Under the pieces are notes generated by a model. It was given only the letters and a program-made list of their open reading frames with translations. It ran no database searches and was not told the origin of the DNA. The position numbers and the translations under genes are program-made. Shown here piece by piece: positions 13,812 through 33,371 of a DNA stretch of 64,000 nucleotides. This stretch comes from Acidisoma cellulosilyticum (GTDB taxonomy: Bacteria > Pseudomonadota > Alphaproteobacteria > Acetobacterales > Acetobacteraceae): NCBI RefSeq assembly GCF_020621385.1, contig NZ_JAESVA010000002.1, positions 124,001 to 188,000 of the forward strand, written 5' to 3'. The first letter of the stretch is position 1. Each line of letters begins with the position of its first letter.

Positions 13812-14183
13812 ATGCTGCGTCAATCCCTATCGATCATGGTGGCGTCTCTGGGTCTTGCCTTCGCGCTTGCCCCTGCCCTGGTGACGCCGGCCGCGGCCCA
13901 GTCGATGCAGACCTATCTGCCGCGCCGCCTGACCGGCAGTGACATGAAGATCCTCTCCTATGAAGCGGGCAAGCTGGGGCCGCAGGGACCGCAAAAGGAA
14001 AGCTGGAAGAACCCTAAGACGGGCAATTCCGGCACCGTCACCTTCCTGCGCCAGTATCACAAGTCGGGCATGGAATGCCGCGGCTTCCGCTACACCTTCC
14101 ATACCGGCACGGCCCAGGATGGCCTGCCCTATAAGCTGAACTGGTGCGAGCGCAGCCCCGGCGACTGGGCGATCGCGAACTGA
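13812..14183 (+). CDS. Secreted RT0821/Lpp0805-like surface protein
   Basis: A 123-residue protein with a cleavable signal peptide (hydrophobic stretch to about residue 29, cleavage near AAAQS). The C-terminal half (NPKTGNSGTV, MECRGFRYTF, NWCERSPGDW) resembles the RT0821/Lpp0805 outer-surface domain with its two conserved Cys. ATG 13812 is chosen because AGGAGCG precedes it; a GTG six codons earlier has no such site. It stands alone and is followed by a good terminator. Function is unknown. Confidence 0.7.
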   Translation: MLRQSLSIMVASLGLAFALAPALVTPAAAQSMQTYLPRRLTGSDMKILSYEAGKLGPQGPQKESWKNPKTGNSGTVTFLRQYHKSGMECRGFRYTFHTGTAQDGLPYKLNWCERSPGDWAIAN

Positions 14184-14211
14184 TCACGGGTCATAGGACC
14201 GGCTGACAGGA

Positions 14212-14247
14212 CCGGCGCGGCTTCTTCGCGCCGGTTTTTGCGTTTTT
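14212..14247 (+). terminator. Rho-independent terminator
   Basis: CCGGCGCG (14212-14219) pairs with CGCGCCGG (14227-14234) around a 7-base loop, followed by TTTTTGCGTTTTT. It ends the secreted-protein gene. Confidence 0.88.
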
Positions 14248-14369
14248 AAGCGCCTTGGCCCTGTTCAGCCTGTCTCTCCGCGCTATCCTCTGACCCGTGA
14301 CGGCCGATTGTGCCGTCCCCGCAGATCAAAACCAAAAAATGCGGGATTGTTCGGGAGGGTTTCGGCTTC

Positions 14370-15137
14370 ATGGCTTACACGATCGATCTGAGCGGCCGTT
14401 TTGCGCTGGTGACCGGTGGCACGCGCGGCATTGGCCTTGCCGCCGCCCGCCGCCTCGGCGAAGCCGGTGCGCGTGTCGTCATTACTGGGCGGGATGAGGC
14501 AGCCGGTGCGGCGGCCTTGCGGGATTTCGCGGCGGCCGGCATTTCCGCCAGCTTTCAGCGCCTTGACGTGACGTCAGAAGATGACATCACCCGTGTTATC
14601 GGCACCATAGCGGCCGATACCGGGATCGATATCCTGGTCAATAGCGCGGGTGTCGCGGCCCATTGCAATACGGAGGACACGGACCCCGCGCATTGGGATT
14701 ATTTGATGAATACCAATTTGCGCGGCACTTATCAGTGCTGCCGGGAAGCGCTGCGCCATATGGCGGCACGCGGACAAGGCGGCAGCATCGTCAATATCGG
14801 CTCGATCTCGGGCATTGTTTCCAACGTGCCGCAGAATCAGGCTGTGTACAATGCGTCGAAGGCGGCGGTGCATATGCTGACCAAGTCGCTGGCCAGCGAA
14901 TTCGCCAACCGGCGTATCCGGGTGAACGCCATCGCCCCAGGCTATATCCGCACCGAAATGACGCAAGGCGGGCTCGACAATCCGGAATGGTCGAAGATCT
15001 GGCTGGACATGACGCCGATGCGCCGTCCGGGCGAGGCCGATGAAGTTGCTCAGGCAACTCTGTTTCTCGCGTCCGACGCGGCGAGCTATATTACCGGTGA
15101 AGTCCTCACGATCGACGGTGGCTATACGACGCGTTGA
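14370..15137 (+). CDS. SDR-family oxidoreductase
   Basis: A 255-residue classical short-chain dehydrogenase. Motifs: TGGTRGIG cofactor loop, NSAG, catalytic Ser in GSISG and YNASK carrying catalytic Tyr and Lys. The start at 14370 is preceded by GGGAGGG; an upstream in-frame ATG at 14310 adds a poor N-terminus. Substrate unknown; 3-oxoacyl or sugar-alcohol substrates are usual. A dispersed repeat follows about 70 bp downstream. Confidence 0.9.
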   Translation: MAYTIDLSGRFALVTGGTRGIGLAAARRLGEAGARVVITGRDEAAGAAALRDFAAAGISASFQRLDVTSEDDITRVIGTIAADTGIDILVNSAGVAAHCNTEDTDPAHWDYLMNTNLRGTYQCCREALRHMAARGQGGSIVNIGSISGIVSNVPQNQAVYNASKAAVHMLTKSLASEFANRRIRVNAIAPGYIRTEMTQGGLDNPEWSKIWLDMTPMRRPGEADEVAQATLFLASDAASYITGEVLTIDGGYTTR

Positions 15138-15206
15138 GGGTTCGGACATCCGGGCAGGTGTGTGGACCGGTCAACCGGACCACATGCCCGTCCGCTCGAT
15201 AGGCTG

Positions 15207-15363
15207 GAGTCTGCCGGGTTTTAACTGAAGCTTGTCCCTAATATCGTCATGCCCGGCCCCAGAGCCGGGCATCCATTCGTTGGGGCGCCCAAGGACTGGA
15301 TGACCGGGTCAAGCCCGGCCATGACGGGGCAAGGGGTCGTTTCCACCTAAACCTGACGGACTC
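15207..15363. repeat. MITE-like element, family A copy 2
   Basis: This 157-bp element begins GAGTCTGCCGGGTTTTAA and ends AAACCTGACGGACTC followed by TA. Its interior (about 15245-15330) is a long imperfect hairpin built on CGTCATGCCCGGC and its complement, a motif dispersed widely in alphaproteobacterial genomes and also seen at 41.5 kb. The right end plus TA forms the TAG stop of the minus-strand HTH gene. Confidence 0.65.
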
Positions 15364-15674
15364 TAGTCGCGCGCCCGAGCCGCTGCGGCGACCAGTTCCG
15401 GTTCACGTTCGATGACACGCAGCAGCAGACGCGCGGCGGGATCCGGCTCCCGCCGACCTTGCTCCCAGTTATTGAGTGTCGCGGCGGGGATACCGAAACG
15501 CTCTTCAAACGCCTTGGCGCTGCGGGCAACTTTGCGGCGGATAGCCTTGACGCGTTCGGGCGGCATGGGGTTGATGCTTGCGATCTCCAGTTCGATCTCG
15601 CCGCGCTTCCAGGCCCGAACATCTTCCAGGGCTTCGACCAGCGCCTGTCCAAGATCTTATCCTTCCTCAGCCAT
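15363..15674 (-). pseudogene. XRE/YiaG-like HTH regulator (antitoxin-like) with early nonsense codon
   Basis: From ATG 15674 the frame reads MAEEG then TAA (15657-15659), then continues open and family-like (DLGQALVEALEDVRAWKRGE) to a TAG at 15363-15365. The C-terminal half carries a good HTH (FGIPAATLNNWEQGRREPDP). Relatives are solitary or toxin-linked regulators of about 100 residues, so the TAA looks like one point mutation breaking the gene. Translation from internal ATG 15566 would give a 67-residue protein retaining the HTH. No toxin gene is adjacent: the upstream 71 bp leads straight to the sugar transferase end. The stop codon is donated by the abutting repeat. Confidence 0.7.
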
Positions 15675-15745
15675 CACCCTGTTCTTCCATTATGCGTCAT
15701 AGGTGTTTTCGTTGCTCGGGTGTCAGATCCGACGACCCTGCCTCA

Positions 15746-17230
15746 TCATACTCCCTCGCCTCTCAACACGGCGCGGATCGTGAGCACGAGAATGCGGAGG
15801 TCGAACCCCAGCGACCAATGCGCGATATAATGCAGGTCATGCGCGATGCGGCGGCGGAGCTTGTCCACGGTATTCGTCTCACCGCGCCAGCCGCAGACCT
15901 GCGCCCAGCCGGTCATGCCCGGTTTGACGCGATGGCGCGCCGCGTAACCGGCGGCCGCCTCGCTGAACGGCAGGCCCCCGGCCTCGGTGCCGAGCGCATG
16001 CGGCCGGGGACCGACCAGGGACATCGACCCTTCCACGACATTGATCAGCTGCGGCAGTTCATCCAGGCTGGTCCGGCGCAGGAAGCGGCCGAGGCGCGTC
16101 ACCCGCCGATCCCCCACCACTGCCTGACGCACGCCGCCGGCATCCCCTGCCTCGATCCGCATGGTGCGGAATTTCCGAACCGGAATGACGCGGCGGTTAA
16201 GGCCCAGGCGCGGCTGGACGAACAGGACCGGTCCCTTGGACGACAGGCGGATTGCCAAGGCAATCAGCAGCATCGGGGGCGCCGCCAATATCAACAGCGG
16301 CAGGCCGAGACATAGATCCTCGGCGCGCTTCACCACAGCCTGGATACCCGCCATCGGCTTGTCGCGCAGCGGCACGAAGGGACAACCGCCAAGGGTCGAA
16401 AGCCGTGCGCCCGCCGCGTAGAAGCGCGCGGCATCCGGCGGCGCCAGCCAGATATCGGCGGCGACACCGGCCATCAGCCGATCGATCGCGGCGATGCTCC
16501 GGCCGGCGGTCTCCGGCAGGGCGATCAGCAGCAGATCGGCGTCCCCCCGTTCCAGCATGGCACGTGCGTCGCGCAAGCTGGGCAGAACCGGCGCCGGCGC
16601 GACGACCGTGTGACAGTTGCGGTCCTCGTCACGCGATGCGATCTCCAACACGCCGCAAAGTTGCAACAATCCGCCGGGCAGGATGACAGGACCAAGCCGC
16701 CGCAGCCCGGCCCGGTCCGCCACCAGCACCGCCCGACGCATAGGTGCCCGCTCCTTGGCGCTTAGCAGGATGGCTTCCAGCCGTGGTCGGGTGAGCATGA
16801 TCAGCGATGGCGCCGTCACGCTCCAGCTGAACAGCCAATTGCGGTTGATGACCAGGATACCGTCGGGCAAGGATGGGGCCGCGACCGGCCAAAGCGTCAT
16901 GAAGCCTTCCCACATCAGCAGCATCAGCAGCATCAGCGCGAAGGATTGGGCGATGGTGAACAGCAGGCGCATCTGCCGGCTGCCGCTGCCTTCACGGTAA
17001 AAGCCCTGGGCGTGGAGCAGGACGAGCCCCAGGGCAGCCGTACCCAGGATGACCAGCATCGCCCGCAGCGTCTGCCCGGCATGGGATGCCGGGTTCAGGC
17101 TACGGCAGGCGAGCCCGGTCGCGATGATGCCGAAAGCATCCCAGGCACCGAGAAGAACGGCCGGGTGACGCGCGAAAAGGCGCTGCGGGCCGGCGCCGGG
17201 GGCAGCGATGTCGCGGCGGGAAAGCTCCAT
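15746..17230 (-). CDS. Exopolysaccharide polyprenyl-phosphate sugar transferase
   Basis: A 494-residue polyisoprenyl-phosphate hexose-1-phosphate transferase of the WbaP/GumD type. It has four or five N-terminal membrane segments, a central nucleotide-binding-like region (about 150-280), another membrane helix near 300, and the catalytic bacterial sugar transferase domain (about 290-490; [28 protein letters not shown]). It starts repeat-unit assembly of an exopolysaccharide by loading the first sugar on undecaprenyl phosphate. No other polysaccharide gene is adjacent, so it is an isolated initiator. Confidence 0.92.
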
Positions 17231-27907: not shown

Positions 27908-28783
27908 TTATGACTGAGCTGCTACTTGCCTTACCTGAAAAAGCCCGCCGCCCTCCGGCGGTTTGGCGTCATAGCCGGATGCATTGGCGCGACCTGTGAT
28001 AATCGCCGCGATCTCGCTTTCCGTCAGCGGCTTGTCGGTGATCCGCCCATCCCCGGCATGACGGAACAGGCTGCCGCTCTGCGTCGGGCAAGCATCCATC
28101 CAACGACGCAAATGGGAGACCGGGTTTAGAAGCTGGTCATCCATGATGGTGATGGCGGAGGAGCCGCGCGCCGTATGGGAGCGGAAACGGCCGAGATGAA
28201 TTTGCGCGCTGGAGCGATCGAACCGCACCTGCGGGAAAGCGAGCCGCGCGAGTTCAAGCAGACGGAAGGCGCCGGACACGTGCAGCGACAGGATGGCGCG
28301 ATCGCGAAGATCTTCGGGCGCATCCTCACCTATCGCCTCGACGATTTCCTGCCAGATATGGATGCTTGGCCGCTGTACGATGCGGCGCACGGTCGTGACC
28401 TTGGGTCGCGCAATCATAGCACGGATCAGCGGCGCTTCCTCGTGAATCATTGGTGACGGAAGGTCGTTGTTCCGATGCATATAGCTGATCGCCGCGATCC
28501 GGCGGTTGAGCGTCGCCAGACCAGCGCCGGTACCTTTCTCACTCGCCAGGAAAAGGCTGACGGAGCGAGGATGCGCTGGCAACTCAGATTCATGATTCTC
28601 TGCGCACCACTGGGAAAAGCGCATCCAATCATGCTGATAGGCTTGCTCGGTCGCAGCACCGATCGAGGAGGAACCCTCCGCGCGGGTACGACCTTCGGTC
28701 GCAGTAAAGAACATATCCCGCGTGAAATTGTTCAAACCCCGGTCTCCGCAATTATTCAATGGCAAAACCAGACAAGCCCCCAA
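27908..28783 (-). pseudogene. Tyrosine recombinase, C-terminally truncated
   Basis: A 291-residue open frame. The N-terminal core-binding domain (TEQAYQHDWMRFSQWC, LNRRIAAISYMH) and the first half of the catalytic domain with its first Arg (AILSLHVSGAFRLLELARL) are clear. The expected HxxR box, second His and nucleophile Tyr are absent; the protein instead ends GYDAKPPEGGGLFQ plus a short unrelated tail. Members of this family normally run about 60-80 residues further. Downstream sequence shows no displaced HxxR segment in any frame I read. It sits upstream of dnaB in lower-GC sequence, suggesting a remnant of a mobile element. ATG 28715 is an alternative start. Confidence 0.75.
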
Positions 28784-29144: not shown

Positions 29145-30401
29145 ATGAAGAAAATCTTGATGGCGACGAGCGCCATCGGCGTTACCTCGCTTCTGACGCT
29201 CGGTGCTGCCTTCGCGCAGACAGCCGCGCCCGGTTCGGTGACCGTTCACCTGAACGGTCGCATCAACTGGTACGCCGGTATCGAGGGTTCCTCGCTCGAC
29301 AGCGTCAATGGCACGAAGACGGCGACCGACAGCTTCTACGGCTATATGCGTCTGTACCCGGGCTTTGACGGCGTTGCCGCCAACGGCCTGCACTATGGTG
29401 CGTCCACGCAGATCCGTATGAACTTCGAGTCCTCGGCCAGCGCCGAAACCCTTTATGTCTTCCAGGCCTACGGCTACCTCGGCACGCCGGAACTCGGCCA
29501 GGTCAGCTTCGGTCAGCAGAACGGCCCGACCGTGCTGTTCGAAACCGGCACCTTCGAAGGCTTCAACGACGGCGCCTGGTTCGGCGATCTTCCCGTCATC
29601 ATCCCCGAGAACGCCGAAGTCATCTATCCCTTCGTCGATACCGGGTACAACCAGACCAGCGACAAGCTCGTCTATCTGTCTCCGACGATCGCCGGCTTCC
29701 AGTTCGCCTTCGGCTTCACGCCGAACAACACGGGCATGAACTACTCCCCGGCCCTGACCTCGGTTGACACCACGGTTCTGGGCGGCACGCCGAAGAACCT
29801 GCTCGACATCGGCGGCCAGTACACCCAGACCTTCGGCCCGGTCGGCATCCAGGTTGGCGCCGACTACCAGTATGCTGGTCAGGTTGCCGGCACCAACGCG
29901 CAGACCGCGGGCTACCAGACGCCGACCGGCTATAAGAACCTGAGCATCTTCTCCGGCGGTGCCACGGCCACGATCTCGGGCGTCACCTTCGGCGGCAACG
30001 TCGTCTACGGTGATTACAACGAAGTCAGCGGCTACAGCTTCCAGATGGAGCCCGATGGCGGCCAGGCGGCGATCGGCTGGTTGGCTGGCGCGCAGTACAC
30101 CAAGGGCCCGCTCACCTTCGGTGCGAGCTATTTCGGCTTCAACACGACCGGTGATCTGCCGGGCGGCGTGGACGACGGCGGCACCGTTACCGCAGCCGGC
30201 CTGACCACCGGCCAGCAGATGGACGCGGGCTTCGCGGCTGGCGCCACCTATACGCTGGTTCCGGGCGTCAACCTGTTCCTCGACTACGATTGGGGCTGGC
30301 GTCACCAGGGTGGCCTCGACTTCTCGAACGGCAATGCCGGCACCCAGCATAACACCGTGCAGTCGCAGCTCTTCGGCGTCGGCACGCAGATCCAGTGGTA
30401 A
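29145..30401 (+). CDS. Outer-membrane porin
   Basis: A 418-residue outer-membrane beta-barrel. MKKILMATSAIG begins a signal peptide cleaved near AFAQT. The rest is rich in alternating Gly/aromatic strands (YGYMRLYPGFDG, FGASYFGFNTTGD) and ends in an aromatic Trp (GTQIQW), the assembly signal. Codon use is more biased than in neighbours, as in highly expressed genes. ATG 29145 is chosen over an upstream ATG (29100) because it gives the proper signal peptide. A strong terminator follows. It would admit small hydrophilic solutes. Confidence 0.9.
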   Translation: MKKILMATSAIGVTSLLTLGAAFAQTAAPGSVTVHLNGRINWYAGIEGSSLDSVNGTKTATDSFYGYMRLYPGFDGVAANGLHYGASTQIRMNFESSASAETLYVFQAYGYLGTPELGQVSFGQQNGPTVLFETGTFEGFNDGAWFGDLPVIIPENAEVIYPFVDTGYNQTSDKLVYLSPTIAGFQFAFGFTPNNTGMNYSPALTSVDTTVLGGTPKNLLDIGGQYTQTFGPVGIQVGADYQYAGQVAGTNAQTAGYQTPTGYKNLSIFSGGATATISGVTFGGNVVYGDYNEVSGYSFQMEPDGGQAAIGWLAGAQYTKGPLTFGASYFGFNTTGDLPGGVDDGGTVTAAGLTTGQQMDAGFAAGATYTLVPGVNLFLDYDWGWRHQGGLDFSNGNAGTQHNTVQSQLFGVGTQIQW

Positions 30402-30455
30402 TAGCGACCACGACCTGCGCGGCGTAAAAGCCGCGTAGGACGGATCGGATAAAAG

Positions 30456-30486
30456 CGCTGGCGACTTCGGTCGCCGGCGTTTTTTT
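30456..30486 (+). terminator. Rho-independent terminator of the porin gene
   Basis: CGCTGGCGAC (30456-30465) pairs with GTCGCCGGCG (30470-30479) across a TTCG tetraloop, followed by seven T. A textbook strong terminator. Confidence 0.95.
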
Positions 30487-30520
30487 GTGACGATTGCCTG
30501 AGCTTATGCGGTCGTGATGA

Positions 30521-32359
30521 TCAACCGGCGCGCATCGTTTTGGGCGTTGCTGTCAGACCGCAATTGTCGTGCAGGCGCGCGCGCAGGCGATGGACCGCAT
30601 CGCCGTCGACACGAAGCGGCGCATAGGCCAGCGCGTCCCGGACAAAGGCGAGGTCGCGCGCGTCCTCGCCCCAGGCCGGATGAAGATTGACCACCCGCCC
30701 CTCACCGAAGGACAGGCTGTCGCCGGTATCGAGATAGCTTTCCGTGGGCAGGCCCTCGGCCAGCAGCACATCGTGATCCGCCAGCGCGATATGGAAATAG
30801 GTCAGGACCGCGACCGTCTCCTGCCGGACGGAGGTTCCGTTGATCAGGTGTTTGACGGGAATCAGGACATCCTCCGCAAAAACCGCATGATCCGGCGACA
30901 GGACCAGATCACGCTCCGGCAGTCCTTCGCCGAAAGCCCCGGCTGTAATCCGCACCGGCAGGATTTTGTCGGGCGCGCGATGCCGCGCGCAATCGATGCG
31001 GCGCGATCCGATCCAGGTAATGGGCCGGAACACGCCGCCGATCGTCTCGACAAGGTCACCGACCACCAAATGCTCGACCGCGACGTCACCCCGATCGGTC
31101 CGCAGATGCGTGCCGCGCGCGAAGCAGGCGACCGAATCGGGCTCCACTTCCACGATCAGCGGATGATCCGTGATCCCGAGTGCAACCGAACTGACATTGT
31201 GCAGGGTTTCGAGCAGGGTATTCTCGGCCAGCGGGTCAAAGACTTCGACCGTCTGGTAGCTGGTGCCGAGATCGACCGTGACCGTTGTGGTCGGCGCCGT
31301 TATTTCCGCCCCCGTCAGTTCGTCCCAGATCGCAGGCTCGTTCCATACGACGATGTCGGTGGCGCCGTCCGATTTCTGCAGTTCCAGACTATTGCCGGTC
31401 AAAGGCAGGTCAAAGAGCGCGTAGGTGAGATAGGTTGGCGTGAAGCTGGCGGCATTGGCGCCGGTATCGGCCAGGATCGTCGTCAGGTTATGAATGCCGA
31501 CCGCCGCTTCCTTCGGCTGGCCGGTATAGTCGAACAATCCGTAGCCGCTATCGCCCTGCGACGATCCGGGCGCATAGGCATCAAGCAACTGGTAGAGATA
31601 GGTCTCCGCAATGCCGTTCTTGGCATCGTCCATCAGAAGATCGAGCGTGTACTTGGCCTGAACGTCCTGGTTGACATCACCGGTGGTGCCGCCGTTGGTG
31701 CTATAGCCGGTCTCGGTATAGACGGCGGGGCCGATGCCCAATACCTCATTGCCGAGCGCGATGATCGGGGTGACGGCCAGATAAGGCGGCTCACCGTTAT
31801 TCGGATAAGGGTGCTGCGTGTCGTTATCGGCTAGCCCCGGCTCCAGATAAGGGTCGGGCCCGACACCGATACTGCCCGCATTATAGCCGGTGAAATAATC
31901 GACGGCGACGCCCGTCAAGGTCGGGTCGTTTTTGACATCCGCGTATAGGGCTTCCTGTAGCGCGACGGCGCCGTCCAGACCGCTGATACCGTCAAAGGTC
32001 AGCGGGAAATTATTGACCTCATTGGCGCCTTCCACGGCGATGACGCTGCCGGGATAGCTAGCTTCCAGCTGATCGATCAGATCCAGCGCGGCGGTGATGC
32101 TGGCATCAGTCACGTCTCCGCCCGAGAAAGGCTCGATCGTGAATTTTATGCCGGCGGCGGCGAGCGTTTCATAGCTTTGCAGCGGCGCCGTTCCGCCCGT
32201 CTCCTCTGCGATCGAGTCCCTGACATTGGAAATGCCAAGATAAGCCAGATCATCGATGACAGTTTGGGTTTTGGCATAAGTGCCGTCGGTATATTCCAGT
32301 CGTGTGTTGACACCGATGGAACCGATGAAGTCCGCAGCACGTTCAACGGTCGAGCTCAT
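30521..32359 (-). CDS. Glycosidase-like TIM-barrel protein fused to a C-terminal Hint domain
   Basis: A 612-residue protein. Residues about 10-330 look like a clan GH-A TIM barrel: GANEVNNF has a possible acid/base Glu114 after Asn, and YTETGYS a possible nucleophile Glu216. Residues about 411-545 are a Hint (hedgehog/intein, Hint_2) domain starting at Cys412 (VACFARGTHLRT, VEHLVVGDLVET, WIGSRR, LSPDHAVF). Hint domains can self-cleave. There is no N-terminal signal peptide, so any export would be non-Sec, such as type I. Start 32359 is preceded by TGGAGATGAC; ATG 32437 lacks a site. No transporter is adjacent. Substrate unknown. Confidence 0.8.
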   Translation of the reverse strand: MSSTVERAADFIGSIGVNTRLEYTDGTYAKTQTVIDDLAYLGISNVRDSIAEETGGTAPLQSYETLAAAGIKFTIEPFSGGDVTDASITAALDLIDQLEASYPGSVIAVEGANEVNNFPLTFDGISGLDGAVALQEALYADVKNDPTLTGVAVDYFTGYNAGSIGVGPDPYLEPGLADNDTQHPYPNNGEPPYLAVTPIIALGNEVLGIGPAVYTETGYSTNGGTTGDVNQDVQAKYTLDLLMDDAKNGIAETYLYQLLDAYAPGSSQGDSGYGLFDYTGQPKEAAVGIHNLTTILADTGANAASFTPTYLTYALFDLPLTGNSLELQKSDGATDIVVWNEPAIWDELTGAEITAPTTTVTVDLGTSYQTVEVFDPLAENTLLETLHNVSSVALGITDHPLIVEVEPDSVACFARGTHLRTDRGDVAVEHLVVGDLVETIGGVFRPITWIGSRRIDCARHRAPDKILPVRITAGAFGEGLPERDLVLSPDHAVFAEDVLIPVKHLINGTSVRQETVAVLTYFHIALADHDVLLAEGLPTESYLDTGDSLSFGEGRVVNLHPAWGEDARDLAFVRDALAYAPLRVDGDAVHRLRARLHDNCGLTATPKTMRAG

Positions 32360-33179
32360 GTCATCTCCAGAGGGATTCTCAGGTTTTGTCTGTGACAAAC
32401 TGTCTCGACTGGATAGCGCAGGCTTTGCCGCCGGCACAATCAGAAGATCGCGTCAAATTCCCTTTCTTTGCTTGGTCTTTGCAGATCAACCTCCGGGTCG
32501 GACTATCAAATGACTTAGTCATTAACGCGCGATGCCTTCTCGGCTTCTGTGAGGGATAGGTTGGATTCCGTCGGACTCTCATGAAAATAGGTTAAGCATG
32601 AGGCTTGATTCGATTTTCGTCCCGAGTGTCAAAATTCCCGAAATTGCGCATCGCTCTCGTCAATCGCGCTATTCGAGAGCATAGTTGAGTAATTAAATGA
32701 CAATGCAACGTTTCACTTAAAAAAATACTTATAGAAAAATCAAATAAGAAAAATGATAAAAGGATGAATAGGCGGTTGGATTGAAAACTTGTCCAATTTG
32801 TTTAGAAATTGTCTTTTTTGAAGAAGGATTTGCACAGCGATCGATGCATTGGATGCAAGATCAACCTAGCGATCGCGTCGGTGCTGTGAACGCGAAACAG
32901 AACAAGGTTCGATAGGAATGTTTCGGCAGGCAAGCAATGCTATTTGCCGAACCGGCATCGACCCGATGGGCCAGATCAACGGGGCGGTTTTCCTGCGGGT
33001 TGCCGCCAGCCGCGCTAGGAGCGCGTGATTTGCCCCGACCATAATTAAGCAAATTGGGTTAATTAAAAAGATAAAATAGCAAGCAGCCGAGTTTTTCTCA
33101 GTCAAAAGGATTATGGCCGGGGCCAGCCCTTAGCTTCAACCTTTGACGGCCGGGCCCGGCCAGCCTAGGCTGAGCCTAC
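32360..33179. other. Long AT-rich intergenic gap
   Basis: About 800 bp with no supported gene. The 32600-32860 part is the most AT-rich stretch of the window, with A/T runs such as TTAAAAAAATACTTATAG. Just before the riboswitch two perfect palindromes adjoin: GGCCGGGCCCGGCC (33148-33161) and CAGCCTAGGCTG (33161-33172). Short open frames at 32861-33105 lack start signals and family features. It probably holds the promoters of the flanking genes. Confidence 0.5.
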
Positions 33180-33275
33180 CAAGGGGAGCCCCATAGAGGG
33201 GCTGAGAGGCCATTCGGGATGTCCCGGCTTGGCGACCCTTAGAACCTGATCCAGGTCATGCTGGCGAAGGGATGG
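33180..33275 (+). promoter_or_regulatory. TPP riboswitch (THI element)
   Basis: The conserved aptamer is clear: GGGGAGCCCC, then GGGGCTGAGA, a variable stem, and ACCCTTAGAACCTGATCC with TCATGCTGGCGAAGGGA. These are the two helices and ligand-binding bulges of the thiamine pyrophosphate riboswitch. It lies about 95 bp before thiO. A G/C-rich pairing region (33294-33335, AAGGGG with CCCCTCTCCCCTT) may form the expression platform. Binding of TPP should lower thiO-thiS-thiG-thiE expression. Confidence 0.95.
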
Positions 33276-33371
33276 ACCGTCTCCGGAGCCCGCTACCCTT
33301 AAAGGGGTGCGCCGGACCAAGCCCCTCTCCCCTTGTCAGTCTGGCCTGGTCGACAGATAGGGCGGCCAGCG

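Follow-up and report, generated by a model that had tools for sequence, protein, structure and literature searches.

Why should a glycosidase-like barrel made without a Sec signal carry a Hint self-processing domain at its C-terminus? The question is raised by a gene of Acidisoma cellulosilyticum within a stretch of 64,000 nucleotides, the whole of which is called here the window. The gene corresponds exactly to the open reading frame at positions 30521-32359 of the minus strand (612 codons plus stop, with an ATG start) and encodes a protein of 612 amino acids, the plus strand frame being interrupted by stops there. An earlier note, made from the letters alone, had given the same span without naming the strand, and had described a GH-A clan barrel followed by a complete-looking Hint domain. 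The reading that we favor, with evenly divided confidence, is that this protein is a secreted PslG-like endo-glycosidase, in which the Hint domain would work together with type I export and would then cleave before Cys412.

The orthologue of Acidisoma silvae (locus L073) is flanked by the same neighbors on both sides, and keeps the ATG start of the protein studied here (MSSTVERAAD); no Sec signal was seen in this start, in agreement with the note. Together with its porin neighbor and the flanking DNA, the gene keeps a collinear order in A. silvae, which rules out a recent insertion. The identity between both proteins is 65% in the barrel, 74% in the Hint domain and 57% in the tail, and the corresponding dN/dS values (about 0.27, 0.30 and 0.35, the last from a dN of 0.31 and a dS of 0.90) indicate that all three parts look to be under purifying selection. 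The neighbors described in the note were all present, namely a porin (Porin_4, E 4e-20), a 291-aa integrase-like ORF and a stretch of lower GC content (0.494 at 32001-33000). The integrase-like ORF, located at 27908-28783 of the minus strand between a dnaB-type helicase gene recognized by eye and the porin, had been called a truncated recombinase. A recombinase-like ORF does exist there, but its DNA aligns along the whole length with that of A. silvae at 75%, so that it is not fresh debris and is probably, as judged from this conservation, a kept gene. Scans for promoters and terminators of the region 30350-33350 gave results near chance. A TPP riboswitch (33172-33289, plus strand, 70 bits) lies upstream of an FAD oxidoreductase gene and of thiamin genes, the latter identified by eye.

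Residues 1-408 (31136-32359, minus strand) are predicted to form a PslG-like GH39 (beta/alpha)8 barrel with a C-terminal beta domain, according to AlphaFold, Foldseek and a profile match. The AlphaFold model, computed with the 81-row alignment described below, is mostly above 90 in this part; of its first 41 blocks of ten residues, 33 reach at least 90. Foldseek ranked PslG of Pseudomonas aeruginosa first (E 2.4e-19), and in a structural re-alignment the PslG entries (PDB 5bx9, 4zn2 and 9g17) were at the top, sharing the whole barrel and the beta domain (Z 29.3, 3.7 A over 355 residues, 19% identity), followed by the GH39 enzyme 5jvk (Z 26.7) and, further behind at Z about 21-24, by GH30, GH51 and others. 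The single protein matched no glycosidase family in Pfam up to E 10, where Hint_2 was the only match, had no match in NCBIfam, and found no direct match among PDB sequences, in such a way that profiles were needed. The barrel alignments contained nine rows at first and then 81 (alignment A2), 78 of them holding the barrel; A2 leaves out L132, L134 and L149 and includes three additional rows that hold only Hint. The profile built from A2 detects PslG by sequence (E 7.7e-8) and places T215-E216 on the T-E of PslG.

Columns of A2 conserved in at least 90% of the 81 rows include R47, E110, N113, E114, H183, Y185, T215 and E216. Among them are the residues that the note had picked out as GH-A candidates, N113-E114 (32018-32023, minus strand), the predicted general acid/base, and E216 in the TETG motif (31712-31714, minus strand), the predicted nucleophile. 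Their predicted equivalents in PslG are Glu165 for E114 and Glu276 for E216; the sequence alignment covers only the region of Glu216, and E114 was matched through the N-E motif and the fold. In a paper whose title calls PslG an endo-beta-glucanase, Glu276 is the nucleophile and Glu165 the acid/base (PMC11912335). The note had named the lack of a glycosidase fold as the outcome that would count against it; a barrel was predicted instead, with PslG as the clear best structural match and both Glu conserved, which upholds the assignment to clan GH-A. As modeled, the domain is probably a PslG-type retaining endo-glycosidase; its identity to PslG is about 19%, and its substrate may differ. PslG is not known to have a Hint domain.

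The Hint_2 domain (PF13403) spans residues 412-545 (30725-31126, minus strand) and scores far beyond chance, at 155.5 bits, where the cut-off is 28.4 (E 1.6e-45). This match and both structure models rule out a chance ORF or a wrong fold. The model of residues 400-612, built from 7 rows, has ten-residue pLDDT means of 77-93 over the Hint domain and under 55, mostly under 50, over the tail. It recovered the HINT fold at Z 13-14, with matches to BIL2 (6y75, Z 13.8), to DnaB inteins and to the BIL domain 2lwy (Z 13.6), as well as to the Hedgehog autoprocessing domain (1at0, Z 12.1). Position 13 of the model, Cys412 (31124-31126, minus strand), was aligned with residue 1 of inteins and with Cys258 of Hedgehog, and position 142, Ser541, with the final residue in several inteins. 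A profile of the 34 Hint domains of the genome found the same BIL domain, 2lwy, as its best match among PDB sequences (E 1.8e-4).

Inteins end in His-Asn. Here the C-terminal intein position is occupied by E540-S541 (30737-30742, minus strand), where S541 corresponds to the last intein residue and E540 is found in all 34 paralogues, so a splicing intein, which needs Asn and a following Cys, Ser or Thr, was ruled out. The description of the Hint domain as complete holds for the nucleophile Cys412 and for the block-B His, His491 in the S-P-D-H motif of the (T/S)xxH type (30887-30889, minus strand), both in place in the model, their loss being an outcome that the note had named as refuting; it does not hold for the splicing Asn, which is absent. 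His529 is also kept in 34/34 paralogues. As the terminal Asn is missing, neither Asn cyclization nor splicing is expected, and an N-terminal thioester chemistry is, with Cys412 as the predicted nucleophile of an N-S acyl shift and cleavage just before it. Release or anchoring of the passenger by autoprocessing, as the note had suggested, would be limited to N-terminal cleavage or transfer. Inspection by eye of the residues before Cys412 revealed no preference. A polymorphic toxin with HINT was ruled out as well, given that only a 67-residue tail (residues 546-612, 30524-30724, minus strand) follows the Hint domain. Of the 34 paralogues, 18-34 have residues in the alignment columns of this tail, and it is a candidate export signal, which may also reside in the Hint domain and the tail together.

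The note had also stated that the gene stands alone. This is misleading, since the Hint module is one of 34 Hint_2 places in the genome (6,004,381 bases in 59 contigs). All 561 pairs of these Hint domains are detectably homologous, with identities of 34-75%. By contrast, comparison of the 33 passengers of at least 80 amino acids, including the barrel of the window, gives 18 groups at a threshold of E 1e-3, 19 groups at 1e-5 and 27 groups at 1e-10. The most populous one has 12 members at 1e-5 and is repeat-rich by eye, and the barrel forms a group by itself. Pfam matches over the cut-off among the passengers are subtilase, von Willebrand D, an AIDA-type stalk and an RTX repeat (the latter in the paralogue L060), and those below it are lipase, pectate-lyase-like and G8. 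Of the 31 Hint ORFs that have their 5' end within the contig, 29 lack a signal-peptide-like start, and in the two that were flagged a later ATG was judged likelier; the rule applied is a crude one of our own, based on hydrophobicity and A-x-A, not SignalP and used without a negative control. Module swapping, with one homologous Hint module behind 33 mostly leaderless passengers, is well supported, as are the two folds. One of them, of 1531 aa (L051, 5408-10000), opens with another glycosidase-type barrel by eye, for which Pfam gives no match. There is also a Hint_2 protein without any passenger (L070, 9947-11128), in which the Hint domain begins about 18 residues into the ORF.

The conservation of the module bears on whether it cuts at all. 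The Hint domain could serve type I substrates solely in their export or folding and have lost its cleavage, the full-length protein being the one that works; it takes the same position as other C-terminal modules in homologues of the barrel, and in other proteins it follows RTX arrays. However, Cys412 is kept in 33 of the 34 modules and His491 in all of them, across identities down to 34%, and the single protein without a first-position Cys, L070, where Ser-Phe-Cys is found, is also the one that lacks a passenger, as expected if the Cys were kept for cleavage, in a sample of one. We regard a non-cleaving Hint domain as possible but doubtful, and prefer the reading in which the passenger would be cut off before Cys412.

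The way in which such a protein could leave the cell was approached through the homologues of the barrel. In a survey of the best 80 of 149 confirmed loci, from named genomes, at least 100 amino acids follow the barrel in 25 loci and not in the other 55. A signal-like start was found in one of the 25 with a C-terminal module versus 42 of the 55 without it (Fisher P 4e-10, with rows that are not independent). The only flagged protein with a module, L075, has an ambiguous start, and of the 13 rows that have no module and fail the signal rule, five from Paraburkholderia (L100, L106, L109, L114 and L115) bear by eye a signal-like run. The modules after the barrel are of diverse kinds, with Hint in L073, L080 and L081, a CBM60 in L072 (Pfam E 2e-32), and ends that are RTX-like or type-I-like by eye in L092, L094, L098, L107, L120 and L124. 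On the barrel tree, from which L149 was left out, the C-terminal module requires at least 8 changes and the signal peptide 16. A test of independent pairs went in the same direction (2.9 opposite versus 0.1 same, with 4 pairs located on starred branches and a median P of 0.25) with too few pairs, so the Fisher value rests on related rows. These data support that Sec signals and C-terminal modules largely exclude each other in the barrel family, and, as they largely replace each other, the missing Sec signal of the window protein is likely explained.

Type I export is the route suggested by these C-terminal modules, and a candidate exporter was found in the genome. The only HlyD over the curated cut-off (C1:422606-423877) adjoins the best PrtD-type ABC match of the genome, itself under the cut-off of that model, in a six-gene operon (L071, 8254-19482) with the order ABC, HlyD, Sel1 repeats, a glycosyltransferase of 1015 aa, an unknown protein of 350 aa and a second glycosyltransferase. 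This operon lies on a different contig from the gene of the window, which has no transporter gene in its vicinity. Among 20 transporter loci chosen from genomes with 7 to 21 Hint_2 matches, the six genes are whole in 17 and the operon is cut by the contig end in two (L161 and L167); the remaining locus, L155, holds a different transporter, the operon marker of that genome (G047) being on another contig. No Hint gene was found near the transporter in 21 loci of at most 20 kb.

Across 150 sampled genomes of Acetobacteraceae, Hint_2 was detected in 117, a strong HlyD in 142 and the operon marker P0002 in 104, the marker being counted at any match of 1e-8 or better, which G129 just passes (6e-9). 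Hint_2 and the marker were found together in 97 genomes, Hint_2 only in 20, the marker only in 7 and neither in 26 (odds ratio 18, P 8e-11, with related genomes counted separately), and the association was kept with one genome per genus (102 genomes, median P 3e-7), the sole correction for phylogeny applied. The same comparison with any HlyD (113, 4, 29 and 4 genomes, respectively; P 0.07) has little power because HlyD is nearly universal. Hint counts per genome in this survey are lower bounds (at least 24 for G000, which has 34 by full count), and the marker is present in 52 of the 56 genomes in which at least five Hint genes were counted. Hint_2 thus tracks the ABC-HlyD-Sel1-glycosyltransferase operon across the 150 genomes of the family.

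The four exceptions are G048, G088, G123 and G145. The first three have HlyD relatives at 33%, 44% and only 28%, respectively. In G145, a genome on a single contig, HlyD is in two overlapping pieces with a stop (C1, near 69927-71194), and six of its eight Hint places are broken, versus one of 11 in its congener G066, where HlyD is whole (P 0.006); for these counts, split rows next to each other were joined manually into single places, and a partial place in G145 was taken as broken. G145 may simply be a decaying genome, and assembly errors may be present in either of the two genomes.

Beyond the family, Hint_2 was found in 5 of 190 genomes drawn from the class, these being the source genome, two family members and two genomes of one other family. 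In the latter two, RTX arrays are present in two of the eight readable Hint loci, L172 and L173, with 15 and 7 GGxGxDx(hydrophobic) motifs ahead of the Hint domain, and the other six have no such motif; four further loci (L181, L184, L192 and L193), read in the wrong frame, are left out of this count. The type I signal normally sits after RTX arrays. The window protein, leaderless and with a C-terminal module like type I RTX proteins, differs from them in that Pfam detected no RTX repeats in it. These proteins in which RTX and Hint_2 are joined, the near-exclusion of Sec signals and the joint decay in G145 argue against a scenario in which cleavage occurs, export follows another route, and the association with the operon reflects a shared ecology of surface biogenesis or shared ancestry. 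Hint genes unlinked to transporter genes and exceptions such as G123 would be easier to understand in that way, and we consider it unlikely.

With type I export as the preferred route, we infer the following course of events. The protein would be made without a leader peptide, a Sec signal being dispensable if export proceeds through the C-terminal Hint module and its tail. The most likely exporter would be a type I (ABC-HlyD) system, for which the ABC-HlyD-Sel1-glycosyltransferase operon is the best candidate in the genome. The Hint domain would fold during or after export, outside the cell, and Cys412 would then attack the preceding peptide bond in an N-S acyl shift. Hydrolysis of the thioester would free the enzyme, presumably active as a glycosidase, and the missing terminal Asn would preclude splicing. 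The same module would be a standard export-and-release tail on the other 32 passengers of the genome.

The fate of the thioester could be another one. In a transfer similar to that of Hedgehog, a hydroxyl or amine of a surface glycan or lipid would capture it, and the enzyme would be covalently anchored to the cell or matrix. The HINT fold, Cys412, the (T/S)xxH motif and the lack of a terminal Asn are as in Hedgehog C-domains, and the co-occurring operon encodes two glycosyltransferases; yet neither an acceptor nor a part resembling a sterol-recognition region was identified, and a direct link between glycosyltransferase and Hint was not found, the domain that they share being a weak match. 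Such anchoring seems to us distinctly unlikely. Bolder still, in the Acetobacteraceae and at least one other family the Hint domain could be a universal tail that sends leaderless passengers to the dedicated operon, the thioester being passed outside to a surface glycan made by its glycosyltransferases, in a sortase-like sorting of dozens of enzymes and adhesins, a proposal that we hold to be very improbable. Release by hydrolysis remains the reading that we prefer.

The constituents of this arrangement (GH39, HINT autoprocessing and type I secretion) are already known, and it is their combination that differs. According to PMC7664689, BIL domains lack the +1 nucleophile and mostly cleave, and Hedgehog performs the N-S acyl shift only. 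The window protein shares the HINT fold with BIL domains such as 2lwy, but here the domain is a C-terminal module with its own tail, with E-S at the intein end and in 34 places of the genome. In Hedgehog the domain is likewise C-terminal behind its passenger, whereas the present protein is bacterial, has a variable passenger and no sterol part was identified in it. Polymorphic toxins also use HINT peptidases for autoprocessing of exported proteins; in the portion of PMC3482391 covered, the HINT domain directly precedes the C-terminal toxin, with T2SS, T5SS, T7SS and TcdB/TcaC as routes, whereas here HINT is C-terminal and the cargo is the N-terminal passenger. PMC2362128 deals with Hog and BIL domains and with one more group of bacterial Hint domains. 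Within the open-access literature covered, which is partial, no description was found of type I substrates with HINT autoprocessing at their C-terminus.

The shared tails hint that proteins may be exported and released in a manner so far unrecognized. The strain Acidisoma cellulosilytica HW T5.17 (PMC8537097) was isolated from decaying wood, and it is named in a title on cellulose hydrolysis. If the proposal were true, one transporter and one self-cutting tail would serve 33 diverse proteins of a cellulose-hydrolyzing wood bacterium, with the tail being carried by the 117 of 150 sampled family genomes. The Acetobacteraceae include industrial producers of acetic acid and cellulose. The tail could provide a possible export-and-release tag, and bacteria would offer a place to study which functions Hedgehog-type domains had before there were animals. 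In two further papers, a cellulose-overproducing mutant is listed with a missense change that affects a function-unknown protein with a Hint domain, causality not being shown (PMC11999647), and PF13403 is among the functions enriched in fast-growing marine bacteria (PMC12487129). Finally, a G-W-A domain that follows the Hint domain at the C-termini of L043, L070, L080 and L081 weakly resembles about residues 230-259 of the glycosyltransferase at 13847-16894 of the operon locus L071 (E 0.011), an observation not used here as evidence.
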